From: an uncultured Chloroflexus sp.
GTDB taxonomy: Bacteria > Chloroflexota > Chloroflexia > Chloroflexales > Chloroflexaceae
DNA length: 32,054 nt
Assembly (NCBI RefSeq): GCF_937129525.1
Contig: NZ_CAKZNK010000141.1
Span: forward strand, 1-32,054
Direction of reading: 5' to 3'
Under the pieces are notes generated by a model. It did not search any database. It was not told the origin of the DNA and worked only from the letters and a program-made list of their open reading frames with translations. Positions 4,339-11,433 of the stretch are shown here, piece by piece; the first letter of the stretch is position 1; each line of letters begins with the position of its first letter. Made by a program: the position numbers and the translations under genes.

Positions 4339-5373
4339 TTACGGATGCAGGCCGCTAAACGTCAAAGCGGTCGTCTCGTTGAAACCGCACATCAAATTCA
4401 TACACTGTACCGCACTGCCAGCCGCCCCCTTCATTAAATTGTCAATCGCGCAGATACTGACAATTCGTCCCGAATCCGGTTCATAGGCAAAGCCAATGTC
4501 GGCATAGTTTGTTCCTGCCAGTATTTTTGGTTCGGGATAGCGATAGATTCCCTGACGCTCTTTGACGATGCGCACAAAAGGCTGTTCACGGGCAAACCCC
4601 CGGTACGCCGACCACAACTCTTTTTCACTTAGCTCGCGCGCGGCAAATGCGTGGACGGTTGCCAGTGCGCCGCGGACAAGCTCGATTGCAGTGATTGACA
4701 TGTGGACGTTGCGCAGGCCGGTGACCTGTTCAACTTCGGCGAGATGGCGATGTCCGACCGGAGCAAATGAGCGCACTGCGCCGGATCGTTCCGGGTGATG
4801 GCTGGCCTCACTCACGGTCGCGCCACCCTCTGATGAACCAACCTTGACATCGGCGATAATCGGACGGTTACGGTCGATGAGGTCGGCCTGCACCAGTGGC
4901 AGCAGTGCCAGATTCGTGGCTGTAGCGTTACAGCCGACGCCGCTGGCGTAGCGCGCGCCGGTCAAGGCAGTGCGATTGACTTCGGGTAGTCCGTACACAA
5001 ACCGTTCGAGCCAGGCTGGCGCCGGATGTTGTCCTCCGTACCAGCGCTGGTAGACCGCTGGATCGCGCAGGCGAAAATCGGCTGAACAATCAATGATCCG
5101 CTCCGCCAGAGTGGCGTAGCGCTCGATAGCCTGCGCCGCTTCACCGTGTGGAAGAGCCAGAAAGAGGAGATCGCACGGCTGTAACGTGTCGGGATGAATG
5201 AATTGCAGGCTGGTGCGTCCGCGCAAGTTTGGATGGATCTGGTAGAGGTACTTGCCCGCATTGCGCGCGCTGGTCGCCTGCGCAATCGTGACATGCGGGT
5301 GATCGAGCAGGAGCCGCAGCAATTCGCCGCCGACATAACCGCTCGCGCCCACAATACTCACTCGTAGAGTCAT
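4339..5373 (-). CDS. lysY: LysW-aminoadipate semialdehyde-forming reductase (ArgC family)
   Basis: 344 residues. It reduces LysW-gamma-aminoadipyl phosphate to the semialdehyde with NADPH, the step after LysX and the kinase. The N-terminus has the nucleotide-binding motif GASGYVGGE; the catalytic Cys lies in SGVGCNATA, where the N-A-T-A following Cys is typical of LysY and of archaeal LysY/ArgC rather than the C-Y-P-T of common ArgC; a catalytic His is in PVGHRH. The start ATG 5371-5373 has GAGGAAA just upstream; a GTG at 5385 in frame overlaps that site and is less likely. It is the last gene of the lysine gene train, 225 bp after lysX. A role in arginine synthesis too (bifunctional ArgC/LysY) cannot be excluded. 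Confidence 0.88.
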   Translation of the reverse strand: MTLRVSIVGASGYVGGELLRLLLDHPHVTIAQATSARNAGKYLYQIHPNLRGRTSLQFIHPDTLQPCDLLFLALPHGEAAQAIERYATLAERIIDCSADFRLRDPAVYQRWYGGQHPAPAWLERFVYGLPEVNRTALTGARYASGVGCNATATNLALLPLVQADLIDRNRPIIADVKVGSSEGGATVSEASHHPERSGAVRSFAPVGHRHLAEVEQVTGLRNVHMSITAIELVRGALATVHAFAARELSEKELWSAYRGFAREQPFVRIVKERQGIYRYPEPKILAGTNYADIGFAYEPDSGRIVSICAIDNLMKGAAGSAVQCMNLMCGFNETTALTFSGLHP

Positions 5374-5487
5374 TGCTTTCCTCACACAATGTCTACCCAG
5401 TCGATGTAGCCGGTGGAGCCATAAGTTGTTCTTGTCTGAGACTCATTATCGGGTATGAGCCATTTCATGCATCTGCCATTCGCTGTG

Positions 5488-5535
5488 GCCGGCCAGCCTC
5501 CGCTTCCATTGGCGAGCAAGCGATGGCTGGCCGGC
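5488..5535. other. long hairpin between lysX and lysY
   Basis: GCCGGCCAGCC (5488-5498) pairs with GGCTGGCCGGC (5525-5535), and after a 2x2 internal loop CGCTT pairs with AAGCG (5501-5505/5518-5522), leaving a 12-nt loop. It is in the 225-bp gap of the lysine operon. It may cause partial termination or protect the upstream mRNA and so lower lysY expression relative to lysX (inference). No T run follows in the direction of transcription. Confidence 0.5.
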
Positions 5536-5598
5536 GCTGCATTCAGCTCAATTCTTTATTCATCCTGACGCGCCCACCGACTAACGTGATGCGTGTCA

Positions 5599-6447
5599 TT
5601 ATCCGCGCCCCCGCCCCACTTCCAGCACGTAATCAATGATCCGGGCCGGAATATCGACACCAGTTGTATCGATGCTATTGCGGAACTCCATCGTGTAATT
5701 GACCTCATTGACCAGGAGTTCACCTTCTGGAGTTTCCAGCAGATCGATGGCGACCACACCGCCACCAACTGCATGCGCGGCCCGGATACTGAGATCGGCA
5801 AGCTCTGGCGTCACCGGGCAATTGGTCGCCACGCCGCCGCGAGCGGTGTTGGTGATCCAGTGCGGACTGGTACGATAGATCGCGCCGATGCACTCATCAC
5901 CGATCACGAAGCTGCGAATATCCCGACCCGGCTTGTCGATGTATTGCTGAATGTAAAAGATCGAATGTTGATAGTTCCCCAGCACATCACGATGTTCGAG
6001 GATTGCTTCGGCAGCATCACGGTCATTGATCTTACTAACCATGCGGCCCCACGAGCCGATCACCGGTTTGAGCACAACCGGATAGCCAAGCTGCTCGATC
6101 GCTTCCAGCGCGCTTTCTGGCGTGAAGGCTAGCAAACAACGTGGTGTTGGCACGCCAGCGTGGATCAATGCCTGAGTGGTGAGGAATTTATCGCCACATG
6201 TGAGAGCAACGTGGTAGGTATTGACGGTTGGCACGCCGGCATCATTAAGAATTTTCAGCATGTACAATGCCCGGCTGTGCTGGATGCAGCGTTCGAGCAC
6301 AACGTCAAACGGATAGCTGGTCTGATGCAGGTCAAAGATCTGCTCGCGGTCATCAACTTTGACATAATCAAGACCGCGGCGTTCCAGCTCCTGAAAGAGC
6401 AGCTTCTCTTCGGCGCGGATGCGCGAACAGAGGACGGCGATGCGCAT
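5599..6447 (-). CDS. lysX: Alpha-aminoadipate--LysW ligase
   Basis: 282 residues, the usual length for LysX. It is an ATP-grasp enzyme that joins the amino group of alpha-aminoadipate to the gamma-carboxyl of the C-terminal Glu of LysW. Visible family marks are [12 protein letters not shown] near 97-108, the ATP-grasp lysine segment [14 protein letters not shown], the acid pair region [26 protein letters not shown] and the metal-binding [11 protein letters not shown] near the C-terminus. Start ATG 6445-6447 is preceded by AGGAG, which overlaps the stop codon of the last lysW copy 11 bp away. Tight coupling to lysW fits joint production of enzyme and protein substrate. An ArgX activity is the main alternative, but the homocitrate-pathway genes upstream favour lysine. 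Confidence 0.93.
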
Positions 6448-6458
6448 AGCGATTTCTC

Positions 6459-6626
6459 CTATTCACCCCAATCCTCTTCAACCTCAGGGGCGAGGGCGAG
6501 AGTGGGCGGGTTCAGGCTAATGACTTCCAGTTCGGCGCCGCAGTCGGGGCAGGCAATGATCTCGCTTTCCAGCGTACTGGCCGGGAGCGTGATTTCAGCA
6601 ACGCATTCAGGGCACTCGGCATGCAT
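6459..6626 (-). CDS. lysW: LysW amino-group carrier protein, copy 3
   Basis: 55 residues, too short to be called easily. It has the Zn-ribbon pairs CPEC (5-8) and CPDC (26-29), a conserved [10 protein letters not shown] centre, and the C-terminal EDWGE whose last Glu receives aminoadipate. It differs from copy 2 by three bases and one residue (Ala31 in place of Thr31). ATG 6626 (Met-His-Ala) has GGAG 8 bases upstream; a second in-frame ATG at 6632 is only 2 bases from it. All key residues are intact, so the copy looks functional. It is the copy next to lysX. Confidence 0.92.
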
Positions 6627-6648
6627 GAGCATCACTCCTTTCGGTCAA

Positions 6649-6816
6649 CTACTCACCCCAATCCTCTTCGACCTCAGGGGCGAGGGCGAGAGTGGGCGGG
6701 TTCAGGCTAATGACTTCCAGTTCGGTGCCGCAGTCGGGGCAGGCAATGATCTCGCTTTCCAGCGTACTGGCCGGGAGCGTGATTTCAGCAACGCATTCAG
6801 GGCACTCGGCATGCAT
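6649..6816 (-). CDS. lysW: LysW amino-group carrier protein, copy 2
   Basis: 55 residues with both CxxC pairs and the terminal EDWGE. It lies exactly 190 bp upstream (in transcription) of copy 3 and is almost identical to it: bases 6652, 6670 and 6726 are the only differences within the gene, and the ribosome-site region is identical. Thr31 replaces Ala. As in copy 3, two starts are possible (6816 or 6822); 6816 has the better Shine-Dalgarno spacing. LysW protects the amino group of aminoadipate and later intermediates, and presents them to LysX, LysZ, LysY, LysJ and LysK through its acidic surface. Confidence 0.92.
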
Positions 6817-6838
6817 GAGCATCACTCCTTTCGGTCAA

Positions 6839-7006
6839 CTACTCACCCCAATCCTCTTCGACCTCAGGGGCGAGGGCGAGAGTGGGCGGGTTCAGGCTAA
6901 TGACTTCCAGTTCGGCGCCGCAGTCGGGGCAGGCGATGATCTCGTTTTCCAGCGTATTGGCCGGGAGCGTGATCTCAGCGGCGCATTCAGGGCACTCGGC
7001 GAGCAT
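6839..7006 (-). CDS. lysW: LysW amino-group carrier protein, copy 1
   Basis: 55 residues, first of the three in transcription order, 15 bp after homoisocitrate dehydrogenase and preceded by AAAGGAG. The Zn-ribbon CPEC/CPDC and C-terminal EDWGE are present. It is the most divergent copy: relative to copy 2 it has Leu2 for His, Ala9 for Val, Asn17 and Asn21 for Ser, Ala31 for Thr, and a different upstream sequence. It therefore probably represents the ancestral position, and copies 2 and 3 a later duplication (inference). Confidence 0.92.
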
Positions 7007-7021
7007 CGTATAGTTCTCCTT

Positions 7022-8026
7022 TCAAACCTGAGCAGTTGTCAATCGTTCAAGCAGAGCATCAGCAACTTCACGAGTAGTTGCGTTACCGCCAACGTCAGGT
7101 GTAGCGATGTCGTCAGCGGCAACTTCCGCCATCGCCTGGCGCAGTCGTTCGGCGGCAGGCAGGCGTCCAAGCCATTCCAGCAGCATCACCACGCAGTTGA
7201 GCGCTGCGGTTGGATTGGCAATCCCGCGACCGGCAATGTCGGGAGCAGCGCCATGCACCGGCTCGAACAACGCCTGACCGTGGCCGAGATTGCTGCTGGC
7301 TGCGACTCCCAAACCACCGCCGTGAATACAGGCAATATCAGAGAGGATGTCTCCAAAGAGGTTGGTCGTGACAATCACATCGAACCGTTGCGGTTGCGCG
7401 GCCAGTTGCATCGCTGCCACATCAACCAGCCGCTCTTCAAACGTAAGGTCGGGATAGTCAGCGGCAACTTCGAAGGCTACCGCGCGGAAGAGACCATCGC
7501 TGAGGCGCAATACGTTGGCCTTATGCACGATGGTGACTTTGCCAGGATGGCCGGCAGCCTGACGCGAGCGAGCCAGTTCACAGGCAGTGCGCGCGATACG
7601 AGCTGAGGCAGTCCGCGTGATAACTCGCTCAGCGATCGCGGTGTTGCCGTCATCTTCCAGCCGCTCGCGTCCGCTGTACAGGTCTTCGGTGTTTTCACGC
7701 ACTACAACAAGGTCAACACCCGGCCCGGTTGTGGGTCGAATGTTGGCGTAGAGATCGAGCGCGCGGCGTAATTCGACAATCGGACTGCGGTAGCCGGGTA
7801 CCGGATGACTCGGTGACGCGACGGCGCCAAACAGGATGGCGGTCGCCGAGCGAGCTGCTGCGAGGGTTTCAGCAGGGAGGGCGACGCCGGTGCGCTGGAA
7901 GACCCCCCACCCCGCTTCCGCTTCGGTGAGGGTCATGTCAGGCGCCAGCGCGCGCAACGCTGCCGTCGCCACTGCCATGACTTCGGGTCCGATCCCATCA
8001 CCGGGAATGACACAGATCTGCATCAT
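7022..8026 (-). CDS. hicd: Homoisocitrate dehydrogenase
   Basis: 334 residues, as in the Thermus enzyme. It oxidatively decarboxylates homoisocitrate to alpha-ketoadipate with NAD, the fourth step of the AAA route. Family marks: IPGDGIGPEV at 8-17, LDLYANIRP, RENTEDLY, VHKANVLRLSDG with the catalytic Lys, DVIVTTNLFGDILSD with metal-binding Asp residues, and EPVHGAAPDIAGRG. The family includes 3-isopropylmalate and isocitrate dehydrogenases; the neighbouring homocitrate synthase, homoaconitase and LysW genes argue for homoisocitrate, though LeuB-type side activity is possible. The start overlaps the stop of the small homoaconitase subunit (ATGA), a sign of translational coupling. Confidence 0.85.
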   Translation of the reverse strand: MMQICVIPGDGIGPEVMAVATAALRALAPDMTLTEAEAGWGVFQRTGVALPAETLAAARSATAILFGAVASPSHPVPGYRSPIVELRRALDLYANIRPTTGPGVDLVVVRENTEDLYSGRERLEDDGNTAIAERVITRTASARIARTACELARSRQAAGHPGKVTIVHKANVLRLSDGLFRAVAFEVAADYPDLTFEERLVDVAAMQLAAQPQRFDVIVTTNLFGDILSDIACIHGGGLGVAASSNLGHGQALFEPVHGAAPDIAGRGIANPTAALNCVVMLLEWLGRLPAAERLRQAMAEVAADDIATPDVGGNATTREVADALLERLTTAQV

Positions 8027-8523
8027 GCCACCTCACCGGGGAAGCGACCATACTGCCGGTAAAAGGGAACGATCCCGCCGGCAGCCCATACTTCACGCAG
8101 GAATAGTGGCGGCGGCGGCAGATGGATAGAGCGGCCATTACCGGTCGTAATGATGCCATTCTCCAGATCAAGCTCTACCTCATCGCCATCGGTCAGCTCA
8201 CTGGTCAGATCGGCGGTAAAGCAGGGAATGCCGAGGTTGAGCGCATTGCGGAAGAAGATCCGGGCGAACAGCGGGGCAATGATTGCCCCAATACCGACCA
8301 TACGAAGCGCCAGCGGAGCGTATTCACGCGAGCTACCGCAGCCAAAATTCTTGCCAGCAACAATGATGTCTCCTGGACGGACACTGGCAGCAAAGTCAGG
8401 GCGATGCTCAATAAAAGGATAGCGCCGCAATTCACTCTCGTCTTTCAGCATGTACGGCGCATAACGGCCAGGAACGATCTGATCAGTATTAATATCGGGG
8501 CCAAACAGCCAGACGCGAGCCAT
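8023..8523 (-). CDS. lysU: Homoaconitase small subunit (LeuD family)
   Basis: 166 residues from ATG 8521-8523, chosen for the upstream GAGAGG at 7-bp spacing; the frame extends 20 codons further without support. It is the swivel domain that completes the active site of the large subunit. GPDINTDQIVPGRY near the N-terminus and FGCGSSREYAP (serine loop) are visible. With LysT it converts homocitrate to homoisocitrate. LeuD of leucine synthesis is nearly indistinguishable by eye; position in the lysine operon decides the call. Confidence 0.85.
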   Translation of the reverse strand: MARVWLFGPDINTDQIVPGRYAPYMLKDESELRRYPFIEHRPDFAASVRPGDIIVAGKNFGCGSSREYAPLALRMVGIGAIIAPLFARIFFRNALNLGIPCFTADLTSELTDGDEVELDLENGIITTGNGRSIHLPPPPLFLREVWAAGGIVPFYRQYGRFPGEVA

Positions 8524-8600
8524 AAATATGCCTCTCTTTCTGATGTATGCAGCCAGATGTGCTGGTGTGTGTCGGTAATGCACGCACTACCCGGCGTAGC

Positions 8601-9872
8601 TTACCCAGCCTGAACCGTTCCATTGCCGGTTGTTACCGGCAGCCCTTCTACGACCGAGCGCGGATCGGTCAGATAACCGGTCAGCGCAGTTGCTGCTGCC
8701 ACTGCCGGTGAAGCCAGATAGATCTGCGCTTCAGGACTGCCCATGCGCCCACGGAAGTTACGGTTACCGGTGAACAGACAGACTTCACCGGGAGCCAGCA
8801 CTCCCATATGGCGACCGATACAGGCACCGCATCCCGGCGTGCCGATTGTTGCGCCGGCGGCCAGGAGAGTGGCAAGCGTGCCGTCGGCGGCAGCGCGGTG
8901 CAGAGCCTGGGCGCTGGCCGGCACGACGATCATACGCACGCCAGGGGCGATGCGACGACCGGCCAGGATTTGGGCCGCGACTGCCATATCTTCATAGTGG
9001 CCGTTGGTACAGGTGCCGAGGTATACCACATCGACGGCTACCCGGCCCAGTTCGCTCAGGTCGGCAACATTATCGACATAATGCGGAGCGGAGATCTGTG
9101 GCTCGAGCTGACTGAGATCAATCTCAACGACCTGCAGGTACTGCGCATCGGCATCGACGGTAGGGACGAGCGGGCCGGTGAGATCGAGACCTGCTGGCGG
9201 GATAAGACCGGCCTTTGCGCCCATTTCAATCGACAGTGTTGCCAGGGTCATCCGCTCCATCACGCTGAGTTGTTCTACGCCATGCCATTCGATAGTGGCG
9301 TAAGTTGCGCCGTCGGCGCGGAGGAGACGGGCAGCGCGGAGGGCGAGATCCTTCGGACCAACGCCAAACCCGAAAGAACCACGGGCGCGCGCGACAATCG
9401 TCTCTGGCACGCGCAGCCAGGTCTTACCGGTAGCCAGCGCCAGCGCGATGTCGGTGCTGCCCATACCGGTACCAAATGCCCCCACACACCCATAAGCCGT
9501 ACTGTGGCTATCGCTACCCAAAATCAACATCCCCGGCTGCGCCAGACCCTCTTCGACCAGCACCGGGTGCGAGATACCGCGCCCCACATCAAACAGGTTG
9601 GGAATACCCTGCGCGCGCACCCATCGGCGCACTTCCTGCTGCTTTTCCGCCGTCTGCACGCTGGCGGCAGGCGCAACGTGATCGATCACCACTGCAACCC
9701 GCCGGGGATCCCAGACCCGTTCGGCGCCTAGCTCGTTGTGCAGAATGCGAATAATACCGGGAGCCAGACTGTCGTGAACCATTACCAGATCGACATTGGC
9801 TGTTACCACCTCACCGGCACGCACCGGGCGACCGGCGACACGGCTCAAAATCTGTTCGCTCATGGTTGGCAT
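8601..9872 (-). CDS. lysT: Homoaconitase large subunit (LeuC family)
   Basis: 423 residues, the length of LysT and archaeal-type LeuC. It binds a [4Fe-4S] cluster through Cys in GTCTNG (about residue 290) and the pair in PGCGACIG (about 350-357). Other marks are VMVHDSLAP, LILGSDSHSTAYG with the substrate-binding serines and His, and FTGNRNFRGRMGS. Start ATG 9870-9872 has GGAGAGGG 7 bp upstream; an ATG at 9863 is a weaker alternative. It is 141 bp downstream of homocitrate synthase and 77 bp upstream of lysU. The same complex could also serve isopropylmalate if no separate LeuCD exists, which the window cannot show. Confidence 0.87.
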   Translation of the reverse strand: MPTMSEQILSRVAGRPVRAGEVVTANVDLVMVHDSLAPGIIRILHNELGAERVWDPRRVAVVIDHVAPAASVQTAEKQQEVRRWVRAQGIPNLFDVGRGISHPVLVEEGLAQPGMLILGSDSHSTAYGCVGAFGTGMGSTDIALALATGKTWLRVPETIVARARGSFGFGVGPKDLALRAARLLRADGATYATIEWHGVEQLSVMERMTLATLSIEMGAKAGLIPPAGLDLTGPLVPTVDADAQYLQVVEIDLSQLEPQISAPHYVDNVADLSELGRVAVDVVYLGTCTNGHYEDMAVAAQILAGRRIAPGVRMIVVPASAQALHRAAADGTLATLLAAGATIGTPGCGACIGRHMGVLAPGEVCLFTGNRNFRGRMGSPEAQIYLASPAVAAATALTGYLTDPRSVVEGLPVTTGNGTVQAG

Positions 9873-10013: not shown

Positions 10014-11141
10014 TTACTCGGCATAGCTATACAGAATCTCGTCGATCATCGCCCCATCGAGATCGTGCTCATCACCGAGCGCTTTGATACGGGCAGCGGC
10101 AGCGCGGGCCTGCGCTTCACTCAGAGTAATGCCCAGCTCGCGGGCCCGTTCGGCAACCGCATGCCAGCCAACCAGGCGATGGGCAACGGCAATCGTGCGC
10201 TGGCGACCAAACAGGCTGGGATCGAGGACTTCGTAGCTGCGCGGATCGGCCAGCACAGCTTTGGTGTGCATCCCGGCCTTGTGATGAAAAGCTGTCGGGC
10301 TGGTGATGCACTGATTGAAAGGTATCTCGATACCGAGCATTGTCGCAACTGTCTCATCAATCTTGGGGAGCAGATCGAGGCGGTAACGCTGCACACGCGA
10401 GGGGTCAACACTGGCAATACGGGCAATCATCCCGCTCAGGCTGGCGATACCGTTGCGTTCACCAATGCCGAGCACTGTGACATCGAGATGGGTAGCGCCG
10501 GCTTCAGCGGCGCAGAACGTGTTGGCGATAGCGCAACCGCTGTCATTATGGCCGTGAAACTCAATATCGCAGCGCACTTCAGCGCGCACTGCACTCACAA
10601 TGTCATAGACTTGCCGTGGCGTTGCGATACCGACCGTATCGGCCAGGCCGATACGCTGCACTCCCATCGCTTCGACGGCGCGGTAAATCCGAATGAGGTC
10701 GGCCAGATCGGTGCGAAAACTGTCTTCGCACGAAAAGCGCACTTCAACATCGTGGTCGCGCAGATAGGTAATCACCTGCTCAGCTTCGGCCAGAATCTCG
10801 CTCAAGCTGCGACCGTGACTAACCGCGCGCAGTGGTTCTGACGTGGCGAAGAGCAGGTTCGCGCCTTGAGCGCCGTGTTCGACGGCGAGGCGTGCATCGG
10901 CCATGTGACAGCGAATATGGGTGAGGATACGGGCGCGCAACCCGTGACGAGCGATAGTAGCGAGATCACGCGCACTCTGCGGTGAGGCGGCAGGAGAGGT
11001 GAGTTCAATATACTCTACGCCGAAGGCGTCGAGCATCTCAGCGATAGCGATCCGTTGAGCGGTTGTAAAGCGGGCGCTGGCGAATTGTTCGCCTTCGCGC
11101 AGGGTCGTATCGACAAAGAACAGGCGCTCAGGCAGCGACAT
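10014..11141 (-). CDS. hcs: Homocitrate synthase
   Basis: 375 residues. It condenses acetyl-CoA with 2-oxoglutarate, the committed step of AAA lysine synthesis and the usual target of lysine feedback. The TIM barrel begins with FVDTTLREGEQF, then TSPAASPQS, THIRCHMADAR, ADTVGIATPR, the metal-binding HGHND, GIGERNGIASL and HHKAGMHTKA; these match bacterial/archaeal LysS-type enzymes rather than LeuA. The start ATG 11139-11141 has GAGAGG at 9-bp spacing and lies inside the end of a 36-codon upstream ORF. It is the first large gene after the promoter at 11405-11433 and the attenuator-like leader. Confidence 0.92.
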   Translation of the reverse strand: MSLPERLFFVDTTLREGEQFASARFTTAQRIAIAEMLDAFGVEYIELTSPAASPQSARDLATIARHGLRARILTHIRCHMADARLAVEHGAQGANLLFATSEPLRAVSHGRSLSEILAEAEQVITYLRDHDVEVRFSCEDSFRTDLADLIRIYRAVEAMGVQRIGLADTVGIATPRQVYDIVSAVRAEVRCDIEFHGHNDSGCAIANTFCAAEAGATHLDVTVLGIGERNGIASLSGMIARIASVDPSRVQRYRLDLLPKIDETVATMLGIEIPFNQCITSPTAFHHKAGMHTKAVLADPRSYEVLDPSLFGRQRTIAVAHRLVGWHAVAERARELGITLSEAQARAAAARIKALGDEHDLDGAMIDEILYSYAE

Positions 11142-11238
11142 ACAGTAGTACCTCTCTCACTTGACAGGAACCAAACAGCTCAGGCCGGCAGTAGCGTGGC
11201 GTGTAAGCAATCGGGCTGACAGTGCGTATGCGTTTCAT
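11128..11238 (-). CDS. 36-residue upstream ORF overlapping hcs start
   Basis: A short ORF (starts MKRIRTVSPIAYTPRY) begins at ATG 11236-11238 with a strong GGAGG (11244-11248) five bases upstream, better than the site of hcs itself. It ends with TGA at 11128-11130, 14 bases inside hcs. It contains six Arg (counting MKRIR and later RYCRPE, VRE) and two Cys. It lies after the attenuator hairpin, so it would be translated only from read-through transcripts. It may couple translation to hcs; a chance ORF is the alternative. Confidence 0.5.
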   Translation of the reverse strand: MKRIRTVSPIAYTPRYCRPELFGSCQVREVLLYVAA

Positions 11239-11262
11239 CGCTTCCTCCATTCACAAACAATC

Positions 11263-11337
11263 GACCCGGCGCACCGTTGGTCTGGCGAGCCGGGTCTTGT
11301 CTCTTCCACACAGCAGACAAGGTGAGCTAACCAGACC
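11263..11337 (-). promoter_or_regulatory. attenuator-like hairpins in the hcs leader
   Basis: In RNA order: GGTCTGG (11337-11331, the last codons of the leader peptide), CTTGTCT/AGACAAG hairpin (11321-11315/11302-11296), then GACCCGGC/GCCGGGTC (11296-11289/11270-11263), a GC-rich 8-bp hairpin followed by a moderately T-rich GATTGTTTG. CCAGACC (11285-11279), in the loop of the last hairpin, is complementary to GGTCTGG. A ribosome reaching the leader stop would cover GGTCTGG and let the terminator-like hairpin form; one stalled at the Lys pair would leave it free to pair with CCAGACC. Confidence 0.6.
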
Positions 11338-11395
11338 TTTCGTCCGGCTTCTTCGCGCGCTTGCTCTGCTTGGTGAAAGAAGTTTCGTTTCTCAT
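11327..11395 (-). CDS. Lys-rich leader peptide of the lysine operon
   Basis: 22 codons from ATG 11393-11395 to TAG 11327-11329. Lys occurs at residues 9, 12, 15 and 16, all AAG, with Arg at 2, 13 and 20. The predicted transcription start (about 11398) is only ~3 nt before this ATG, so it would be read from an effectively leaderless mRNA end; no Shine-Dalgarno is possible. Its position before homocitrate synthase and the alternative hairpins after it match classical amino-acid attenuation. Translation is unproven. Confidence 0.65.
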   Translation of the reverse strand: MRNETSFTKQSKRAKKPDERSG

Positions 11396-11404
11396 AGCGG
11401 TACG

Positions 11405-11433
11405 ACTATAGCAGAAGTTGAAAACCGTGTCAA
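11405..11433 (-). promoter_or_regulatory. consensus promoter of the lysine operon
   Basis: Read on the minus strand: TTGACA (11433-11428), 17-bp spacer, TATAGT (11410-11405). Five of six -10 bases and all six -35 bases match the sigma70 consensus. It gives an untranslated or peptide-coding leader of about 257 nt before hcs. Confidence 0.85.

Follow-up and report, generated by a model that had tools for sequence, protein, structure and literature searches.

The window, i.e. the whole stretch of DNA analysed here (32,054 nucleotides), is the contig G000:C141 of a 4.48-Mb, Chloroflexus-like genome. Its minus strand carries a putative lysine operon headed by the gene of homocitrate synthase (hcs), which is preceded by a promoter, a short leader ORF, a series of RNA helices and a second small ORF, as follows:

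11405-11433, minus strand: sigma-70-type promoter, TTGACA-N17-TATAGT with TG before the -10 hexamer (11/12 consensus matches)
11327-11395, minus strand: leader ORF of 22 codons, MRNETSFTKQSKRAKKPDERSG and stop, with the putative control codons Lys15-Lys16 at 11353-11348
11342-11349, minus strand: region 1 (AGCCGGAC), forming the 5' side of protector hairpin 1:2 (folding)
11326-11337, minus strand: region 2 (GGTCTGGTTAGC), 5' arm of the antiterminator, holding the leader stop (folding and comparison)
11296-11321, minus strand: hairpin CTTGTCT/AGACAAG, intervening between region 2 and region 3 (folding)
11279-11290, minus strand: region 3 (GCTCGCCAGACC), which forms the 3' side of the antiterminator and overlaps the terminator's 5' arm (folding and comparison)
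11263-11296, minus strand: terminator hairpin 3:4, GACCCGGC-t-CGCC ... GGTG-c-GCCGGGTC (folding)
11253-11262, minus strand: interrupted U-tract, GATTGTTTGT (sequence)
11128-11238, minus strand: second small ORF of 36 codons, MKRIRTVSPIAYTPRYCRPELFGSCQVREVLLYVAA, with its stop 14 nt beyond the start of hcs and GGAGG just upstream
10014-11141, minus strand: hcs, homocitrate synthase (TIGR02146, 422.1 bits, cutoff 413.55), the putative regulated gene and first of the operon
4339-9872, minus strand: remainder of the putative lysine operon, from the homoaconitase-family to the ArgC-family genes

Profile searches revealed, after hcs, the homoaconitase-family large and small subunits, a dehydrogenase, three LysW-like ORFs, LysX and an ArgC-family reductase. 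The dehydrogenase is of the isocitrate/isopropylmalate type and scores under the cutoff of every specific model, so that it is named homoisocitrate dehydrogenase by position only; the ArgC-family reductase is similarly assigned as LysY by position. Judged from its gene content, the operon is that of the AAA/LysW lysine route. The LysW-like ORFs encode carrier proteins arranged in tandem between the dehydrogenase and lysX genes (6459-7006, minus strand), two of them being near-identical at 58 aa and one having 55 aa, all ending with EEDWGE.

Concerning the promoter, its hexamers TTGACA (11433-11428) and TATAGT (11410-11405) are separated by N17 on the minus strand and represent the best of seven promoter-like sites in the segment 8000-15000, for which shuffled sequences gave a mean of 3.0 sites; the leader ATG (11395) is located 9 nt past the -10 hexamer. 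The leader ORF has its Lys codons at positions 9, 12, 15 and 16 and ends with KQSKRAKKPDERSG and a TAG stop, the latter sitting within the 5' arm of the antiterminator. Both the consensus promoter ahead of the leader and the 22-codon ORF with four Lys codons, two of them adjacent at 15-16, had been put forward in the original prediction and were found as described there.

With regard to the RNA helices, the antiterminator joins GGTCTGGTTAGC and GCTCGCCAGACC by 11 pairs around one mismatch and includes the segments GGTCTGG (11337-11331) and CCAGACC (11285-11279). In the terminator, the 8-bp GC stem (11296-11289 with 11270-11263) continues beyond one T.C mismatch by 4 more pairs (-25.2 kcal/mol, z -4.85), and the CC of CCAGACC thus lies in the stem. 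The complementarity between GGTCTGG and a CCAGACC located in the terminator loop, as originally proposed, is therefore real with respect to the pairing, which is even longer, but not with respect to the place of the CC; the further hairpin expected between the two segments is present as CTTGTCT/AGACAAG and may possibly act as a pause hairpin. The protector hairpin is a third structure, absent from the original prediction, in which AGCCGGAC at 11349-11342 pairs, according to folding, with GTCTGGTT at 11336-11329 (fold z -3.45 for 11350-11255). The elements follow the standard order 1-2-3-4, the predicted antiterminator and terminator being mutually exclusive and accompanied by the protector. 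The terminator is followed by GATTGTTTG, containing 5 T in 8 positions with the longest run of 3. A terminator-like site on the plus strand (11279-11296) was set aside as the complement of the same hairpin region; there were 4 such sites versus 5.6 in shuffled sequences.

We consider it highly probable that the element is a ribosome-mediated transcription attenuator sensing charged tRNA-Lys and controlling the AAA/LysW lysine operon, with its core being reused elsewhere with Arg and probably with Gln codons. The parts, their conservation, the covariation and the match between codons and pathway come from the in silico analysis; from it we infer the transcription start, the ribosome geometry and the dependence on the lysine level. 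A ribosome translating the 22-codon leader would follow the RNA polymerase and, if Lys-tRNA were scarce, would stall with Lys15 or Lys16 in its A site, covering region 1 and leaving region 2 free. Region 2 would then pair with region 3 to form the antiterminator, enclosing the intervening hairpin, so that the terminator would be blocked and hcs transcribed. If lysine were plentiful, the ribosome would reach the stop inside region 2 and cover that region, region 3 would pair with region 4 and transcription would end. Should translation be absent, the 1:2 hairpin would form, and the terminator would form by default; with a ribosome stalled at Lys codon 9 or Lys codon 12, region 1 would stay uncovered, and termination is predicted for this case as well.

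Counted from the A-site codon, the ribosome footprint extends over ~12 nt. A ribosome having codon 16 in its A site would cover the RNA to 11338, one base before region 2, which begins at 11337; one having the stop there would reach ~11317 and hide region 2. According to this coordinate arithmetic, the control codons and the stop appear to be placed so as to free or cover region 2.

The family hcs loci were found by hcs alone, with the upstream sequences located by tblastn, and the element was present in all 30 loci with fetched upstream sequence; in one of them (L028), the contig end cuts the element before the Lys codons. A covariance model constructed from these 30 sequences, including the Lys cassette (model R1), matched in 32 of the 32 family genomes with full or near-full hcs (41 genomes in total) at E <= 7.4e-12, 30 of these 32 genomes having supplied the sequences of the model. 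Among the other nine family genomes, one of which (G025) has an hcs fragment, six had no R1 match at 0.01, and the remaining three (G018, G029 and G031) exhibited weaker matches before a homoaconitase or argG gene. In the order, R1 matched in 68/82 genomes at E <= 0.01, this count including Arg and Gln versions and a few chance-like matches; in the sample of the phylum, there were 33 genomes with a match out of 301, i.e. 23 in the order and 10 outside it, the latter covering three Lys-rich leaders before lysX-like genes (L069, L071 and L072) and two chance-like matches (L066 and L070). It should be noted that R1 may favour Lys-rich sequences among distant matches because it includes the Lys cassette.

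A further 57 hcs loci, the majority of which belong to other Chloroflexota and to other phyla, were inspected, and 11 of the 57 have an R1 match at E <= 0.001 just upstream of hcs; a short ORF with at least four Lys in eight codons was seen at 14 of the 57, a count made without a shuffled control. No convincing element was found at the remaining further hcs loci, records from Planctomycetota and Holophagales being among them. In two of the loci, two lysine-type attenuators are found in tandem before hcs (L161, 2114-2419; L177, 2196-2474). Several matches were rejected: those of the Holophagales type at the hcs start (E ~0.1 or more), four from the order (L109, L113, L119 and L125; E 4.9e-5 to 0.0098) and two from the phylum sample (L066 and L070; E 3.4e-6 and 3.7e-4), these six resembling a gene end with a terminator or coding sequence, as well as the opposite-strand matches that reflect the palindromic terminator.

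The codon cassette of the leader is well preserved. Its four positions are occupied by Lys in 26, 29, 27 and 28 of the 29 family leaders with a full cassette, 103 of these 110 Lys codons being AAG, whereas AAG and AAA are found in the ratio 36:21 in 11 window ORFs. In the cassette codons KQxKRxKK, codon pairs with a single difference were synonymous/nonsynonymous in the ratio 387/331 versus the expected 158/560, these being pairwise and thus non-independent counts; the cassette is, as far as substitution patterns tell, under protein-level constraint and is presumably translated. Lys occupies codon 15 or 16 in 48/49 scored lysine-operon leaders, the exception being L088 with Lys at neither position. 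By codon content and constraint, the ORF thus has the properties expected of the leader peptide of a ribosome-mediated attenuator. The leaders L171, L176 and L181 end with KPD, their stop immediately preceding region 2, which would result in the same occlusion of region 2.

A lysine riboswitch or a T-box, i.e. an RNA sensing the metabolite or the tRNA, with the ORF being incidental, would also have a terminator hairpin before a lysine gene as its output. The window yielded no Rfam match at gathering scores, with the lysine riboswitch and T-box families included, and six relatives searched at E<=1 gave no T-box, their only matches being three sub-threshold ones to microRNA families. Since the cassette codons are constrained at the level of protein (387/331 vs 158/560) and, as described below, agree with the pathway, such a sensor seems exceedingly improbable, and we retain the translating ribosome as the sensing device.

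The helices of the terminating conformation are supported by covariation. In the 30 family sequences, 88.9% of cells were paired and 28 double-change cells were counted versus 11.5 in shuffles (0/500 shuffles reaching the value); in 82 CM-aligned rows, the corresponding numbers were 197 versus 54.4 (0/500), the latter alignment leaning to the model structure and containing seven short rows in which the palindromic terminator was matched on the opposite strand. Among the CM-aligned relatives, the 6-pair core of the protector had 91.9% of cells paired, with one of its six pairs changing on both sides, and the intervening hairpin had 76.4% of cells paired, with all five modelled pairs changing on both sides.

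The antiterminator, which is not part of R1, covaries only modestly because the helix hardly varies. Paired cells amounted to 83.8% in the family, where its score was reached by 13/500 shuffles and its number of covarying pairs by 182/500. In the larger set, 91.2% of cells were paired versus 19-42% when the helix was slid, with 10 double-change cells versus 5.5 in shuffles (11/500), a score reached by 20/500 and a number of covarying pairs reached by 239/500. Given a mixed alignment in which 38 cores of the Lys, Arg and Gln-rich types were combined, RNAalifold itself picked the antiterminator helix; both its pairing and covariation score were reached by 0/500 shuffles and its number of covarying pairs by 47/500, and a control slid by -3 had a similar score (0.189 vs 0.199) but only 41% of cells paired versus 92.9%. 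When folding was confined to the part between the start of region 2 and the end of region 3, 8-11 antiterminator pairs formed in 30/30 loci, whereas in the whole RNA from region 2 on, the antiterminator was kept in 6/30 loci and the terminator won, by predicted energies, in 24/30. The decision must therefore be kinetic, made in the course of transcription, as in known attenuators.

The relatives also bear on what had been expected from them at the outset. The original prediction took the Lys codons and the complementarity in relatives as one of its tests, and both are kept, with Lys at 15 or 16 in the above-mentioned 48/49 leaders; it also called for covarying stems, which hold for the terminating helices and only modestly for the antiterminator. 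The idea that the position of the ribosome, at the Lys pair or at the stop, would select between the two pairings gains support from the conserved codons, the covariation, the antiterminator folds obtained in 30/30 loci and the Arg cassettes at Arg operons.

It should be pointed out that the U-tract is interrupted in all eight loci of the window's genus, whereas a run of at least four T follows the terminator in 16/22 other family loci. One could thus think of a constitutive or processing hairpin in the genus, the translated leader merely damping transcription and, the U-tract being weak, no response to lysine taking place. This has little chance of being correct, as the genus loci kept 5 T in 8 positions in 7/8 cases as well as the other parts of the switch, and their terminator stem exhibits a compensatory A-U/G-C change in L002 and L008 versus the other six.

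As for the beginning of the transcript, a TTGACA/G-17-TATxxT site scoring at least 9/12 was detected in 25/30 family loci, that of the window included; the other five have too short an upstream sequence, no good match or were unscored (L026). The ATG is found 9 nt after the -10 hexamer in 7/8 genus loci and in L027; in the genus exception (L007), a duplication puts it 32 nt after -10. In the other family loci with a scored promoter, the ATG or GTG follows -10 at a distance of ~33-55 nt that varies with the choice of start; L018 has further ATGs 24 and 12 nt after -10. The near-leaderless character that had been proposed for the leader thus applies to the window, to most of its genus and to L027, but not to the remaining scored family loci, and because of the ~33-55 nt gap in the latter, near-leaderlessness is regarded, on predicted transcription starts, as a lineage feature mostly confined to the window's genus. 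Initiation without a Shine-Dalgarno sequence is plausible at this leader; the mechanism does not require it.

Between the terminator and hcs there is the second small ORF, its length being 31-43 codons wherever a start was assigned (19 loci). Its segment TPRxxRPELFGxCQVR is kept in 29/30 loci (RPELFGSCQVR in the window), and single differences were synonymous/nonsynonymous in the ratio 2397/357 versus the expected 765/1989 (again pairwise and non-independent); in these 29 loci, the ORF is, on this comparison, under protein-level constraint. In 24/29, the ORF stops 14 nt beyond the aligned start of hcs. The ORF is missing from L026, while L017 has an in-frame TAA after the expected ATG, which requires one to assume either that a GTG serves as start or that the copy is broken. 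The profile of this ORF (A3) matched at E <= 1.1e-12 in 30/82 genomes of the order, all from the window's family and all adjoining hcs, the weaker matches (E down to 0.0035 and below) being chance-like; an RPELFxGC-like segment is, in addition, visible in the loci L111 and L116 of the family f2. No match to the ORF was found in Pfam or NCBIfam, and a coupled regulatory peptide would be a guess at its role.

A further model, R2, covers the core only, with most of the cassette left out. The shared core consists of the protector CCGGAC, the antiterminator GTCTGG/CCAGAC, the GCTTG hairpin and the terminator. All eight genomes of the genus have at least two R2 matches, and in the phylum sample, a match at E <= 0.001 was recorded in 38/400 genomes, 31 of them in the order. 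The seven outside the order are represented by L063, L065 and L068 (from one family, Gln-rich, before LysE-type genes), L277, L276 (argC), L275 and L064. The window's own genome possesses an Arg-type copy (L217; G000:C25:6265-6357), whose leader ends with RHRRRRRCCCQSIARSG and a stop and which precedes a histidine-phosphatase gene (PF00300) and an argJ-like gene. In G010:C607, the Arg core occurs twice, ~1.8 kb apart, apparently by duplication (L219/L220). Two further observations concern L236 (G056:C9:17909-18004), a weak core match (E 1.4e-5) before what by eye is the start of a glutamyl-tRNA synthetase-like gene, its leader having no clear codon bias, and L064 (G256), a core match before a metallophosphoesterase-like gene (by eye) with a Pro/Glu-rich leader.

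For the scoring of codons, 111 loci were entered with labels given by hand, of which 101 were scored and 10 skipped: L028 for having its cassette off the contig, and L085, L096, L105, L111, L116-L118, L123 and L277 for an unmatched end motif. Inspection of the skipped leaders by eye showed several Lys codons in each of L085, L105, L111 and L116-L118 and an abundance of Gln in L096 and L277. L050, L059, L064, L068, L069, L071, L072, L275 and the further hcs loci searched with R1 were left out of the scoring. Gene names were assigned as argJ by NCBIfam in L120, argG in L112 and argC in L276, and elsewhere by motif. The motif check of the labels agreed for argG in 21/21 and for the homoaconitase group in 11/12 (L084 unconfirmed); in the argJ group, the phosphatase gene was in view in 13/14, with the argJ motif, too, in 12 of these. 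The fourteenth, L228, has no motif in its 236 downstream bases; it has at least three Arg codons. L098, with lysX downstream, was scored as label-less, and L220 (the duplicate) and L236 (gltX-like) belong to no group.

The cassettes follow the pathway. At least three Lys codons were counted in 35/36 hcs, 11/12 homoaconitase-group and 1/1 lysX leaders (47/49 lysine-gene leaders), and at least three Arg codons in 21/21 argG, 13/13 argJ-operon and 1/1 argC leaders (35/35, L228 being left out for want of a visible gene); not a single Arg leader reached three Lys codons, nor did any Lys leader reach three Arg codons. As the Arg and Gln cassettes are not in R2, this match of codons to pathway was not built into the R2 search. 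Before the LysE-type genes outside lysine operons, at least three Gln codons are present in 5/6 scored leaders, the sixth (L115) having been misframed in the scoring and reading KQQQQSQ by eye; it should be noted that this threshold is less specific for Gln than for Lys or Arg, being reached also by 4/12 homoaconitase-group, 1/21 argG and 3/14 argJ-group leaders. The downstream genes are thus those for biosynthesis of the amino acid presumably sensed, in the window as well as in relatives, with the LysE-type cases being transporters.

Leaders rich in Gln codons occur on this core ahead of LysE-type transporter genes in L063/L278, L065/L279, L068, L237, L277, L107, L104 and L115, the LysE type being assigned by PF01810 in L063, L126 and L277 and otherwise by motif. 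The leader of L277, a locus belonging to a distant family of the phylum, reads LQQQQGNQP by eye. It is possible that these leaders represent glutamine-sensing attenuators. In the family f4, where a LysE-type transporter is found in or heading lysine-gene clusters, 5/7 scored leaders are Lys-rich and the skipped L096 is Gln-rich.

The sorting of cassettes is of importance for a further explanation, according to which the KR..KKP peptide would slow the ribosome by its charge or by the Pro context rather than through tRNA-Lys, the switch thus reporting the general rate of translation. Basic residues do stand just before Pro in most Lys and Arg leaders. Charge alone, however, would not explain why the cassettes sort by pathway, with Arg operons using Arg and Lys operons using Lys without any exchange of rich cassettes, and the uncharged Gln is abundant in 5/6 scored leaders of the LysE type outside lysine operons; this explanation is, therefore, regarded as quite improbable, and the sensing of charged tRNA-Lys remains the favoured one for the lysine operon.

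The trp, his and leu attenuators of enterobacteria have codons of the product in the leader peptide, mutually exclusive 1:2, 2:3 and 3:4 pairings, a region 2 covered by the ribosome at the stop and a biosynthetic operon downstream. All these features are predicted for the present element, too. It differs from them in the putative lysine signal, in the one core common to its Lys, Arg and Gln-rich versions, in having—in the window's genus—hardly any predicted 5' untranslated region and in that its terminator is followed by a conserved small ORF. In Thermus thermophilus, a leader peptide with Lys codons has reportedly been described as attenuating the hcs lysine cluster, and this system would share with the window the AAA/LysW pathway, the hcs cluster and the leader Lys codons; we know of no Lys/Arg/Gln core shared in that work. 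The originally proposed attenuation of the AAA lysine route in a non-model phylum is thus supported before hcs, such attenuation not being without precedent.

In the parts of the literature searched, which included portions of PMC3556520, PMC2965389 and PMC3150298, there was no description of a lysine attenuator from Chloroflexota. The RNA regulatory elements predicted for amino-acid genes of Actinobacteria (PMC1262725) were likewise obtained by comparison and lie outside the classical groups, the phylum being other than Chloroflexota. Nor did the literature searched contain a description of a shared core re-codable for Lys, Arg and Gln. The mechanism is thus of a known kind, and the shared re-codable core is apparently undescribed in that literature.

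Since the core is reused with Arg and probably with Gln codons, a modular family of attenuators suggests itself. On balance, we favour the view that Chloroflexota possess an old family of this kind, having one core that was copied before various operons, its cassette being re-coded in the process between Lys, Arg and Gln, with the Gln version sensing glutamine on a LysE-type transporter and with the Lys codons 9 and 12 possibly restoring termination under extreme starvation. To our knowledge, the classical attenuators for different amino acids have been treated as separate inventions. Here, the codons before the conserved Pro change while the core stays, and since the Lys, Arg and Gln-rich versions share that core, the question of how an attenuator changes its amino-acid specificity becomes one that can be asked. 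For the AAA lysine route of Chloroflexota, the locus itself offers a switch that is open to testing, together with a neighbouring conserved and unannotated peptide ORF.
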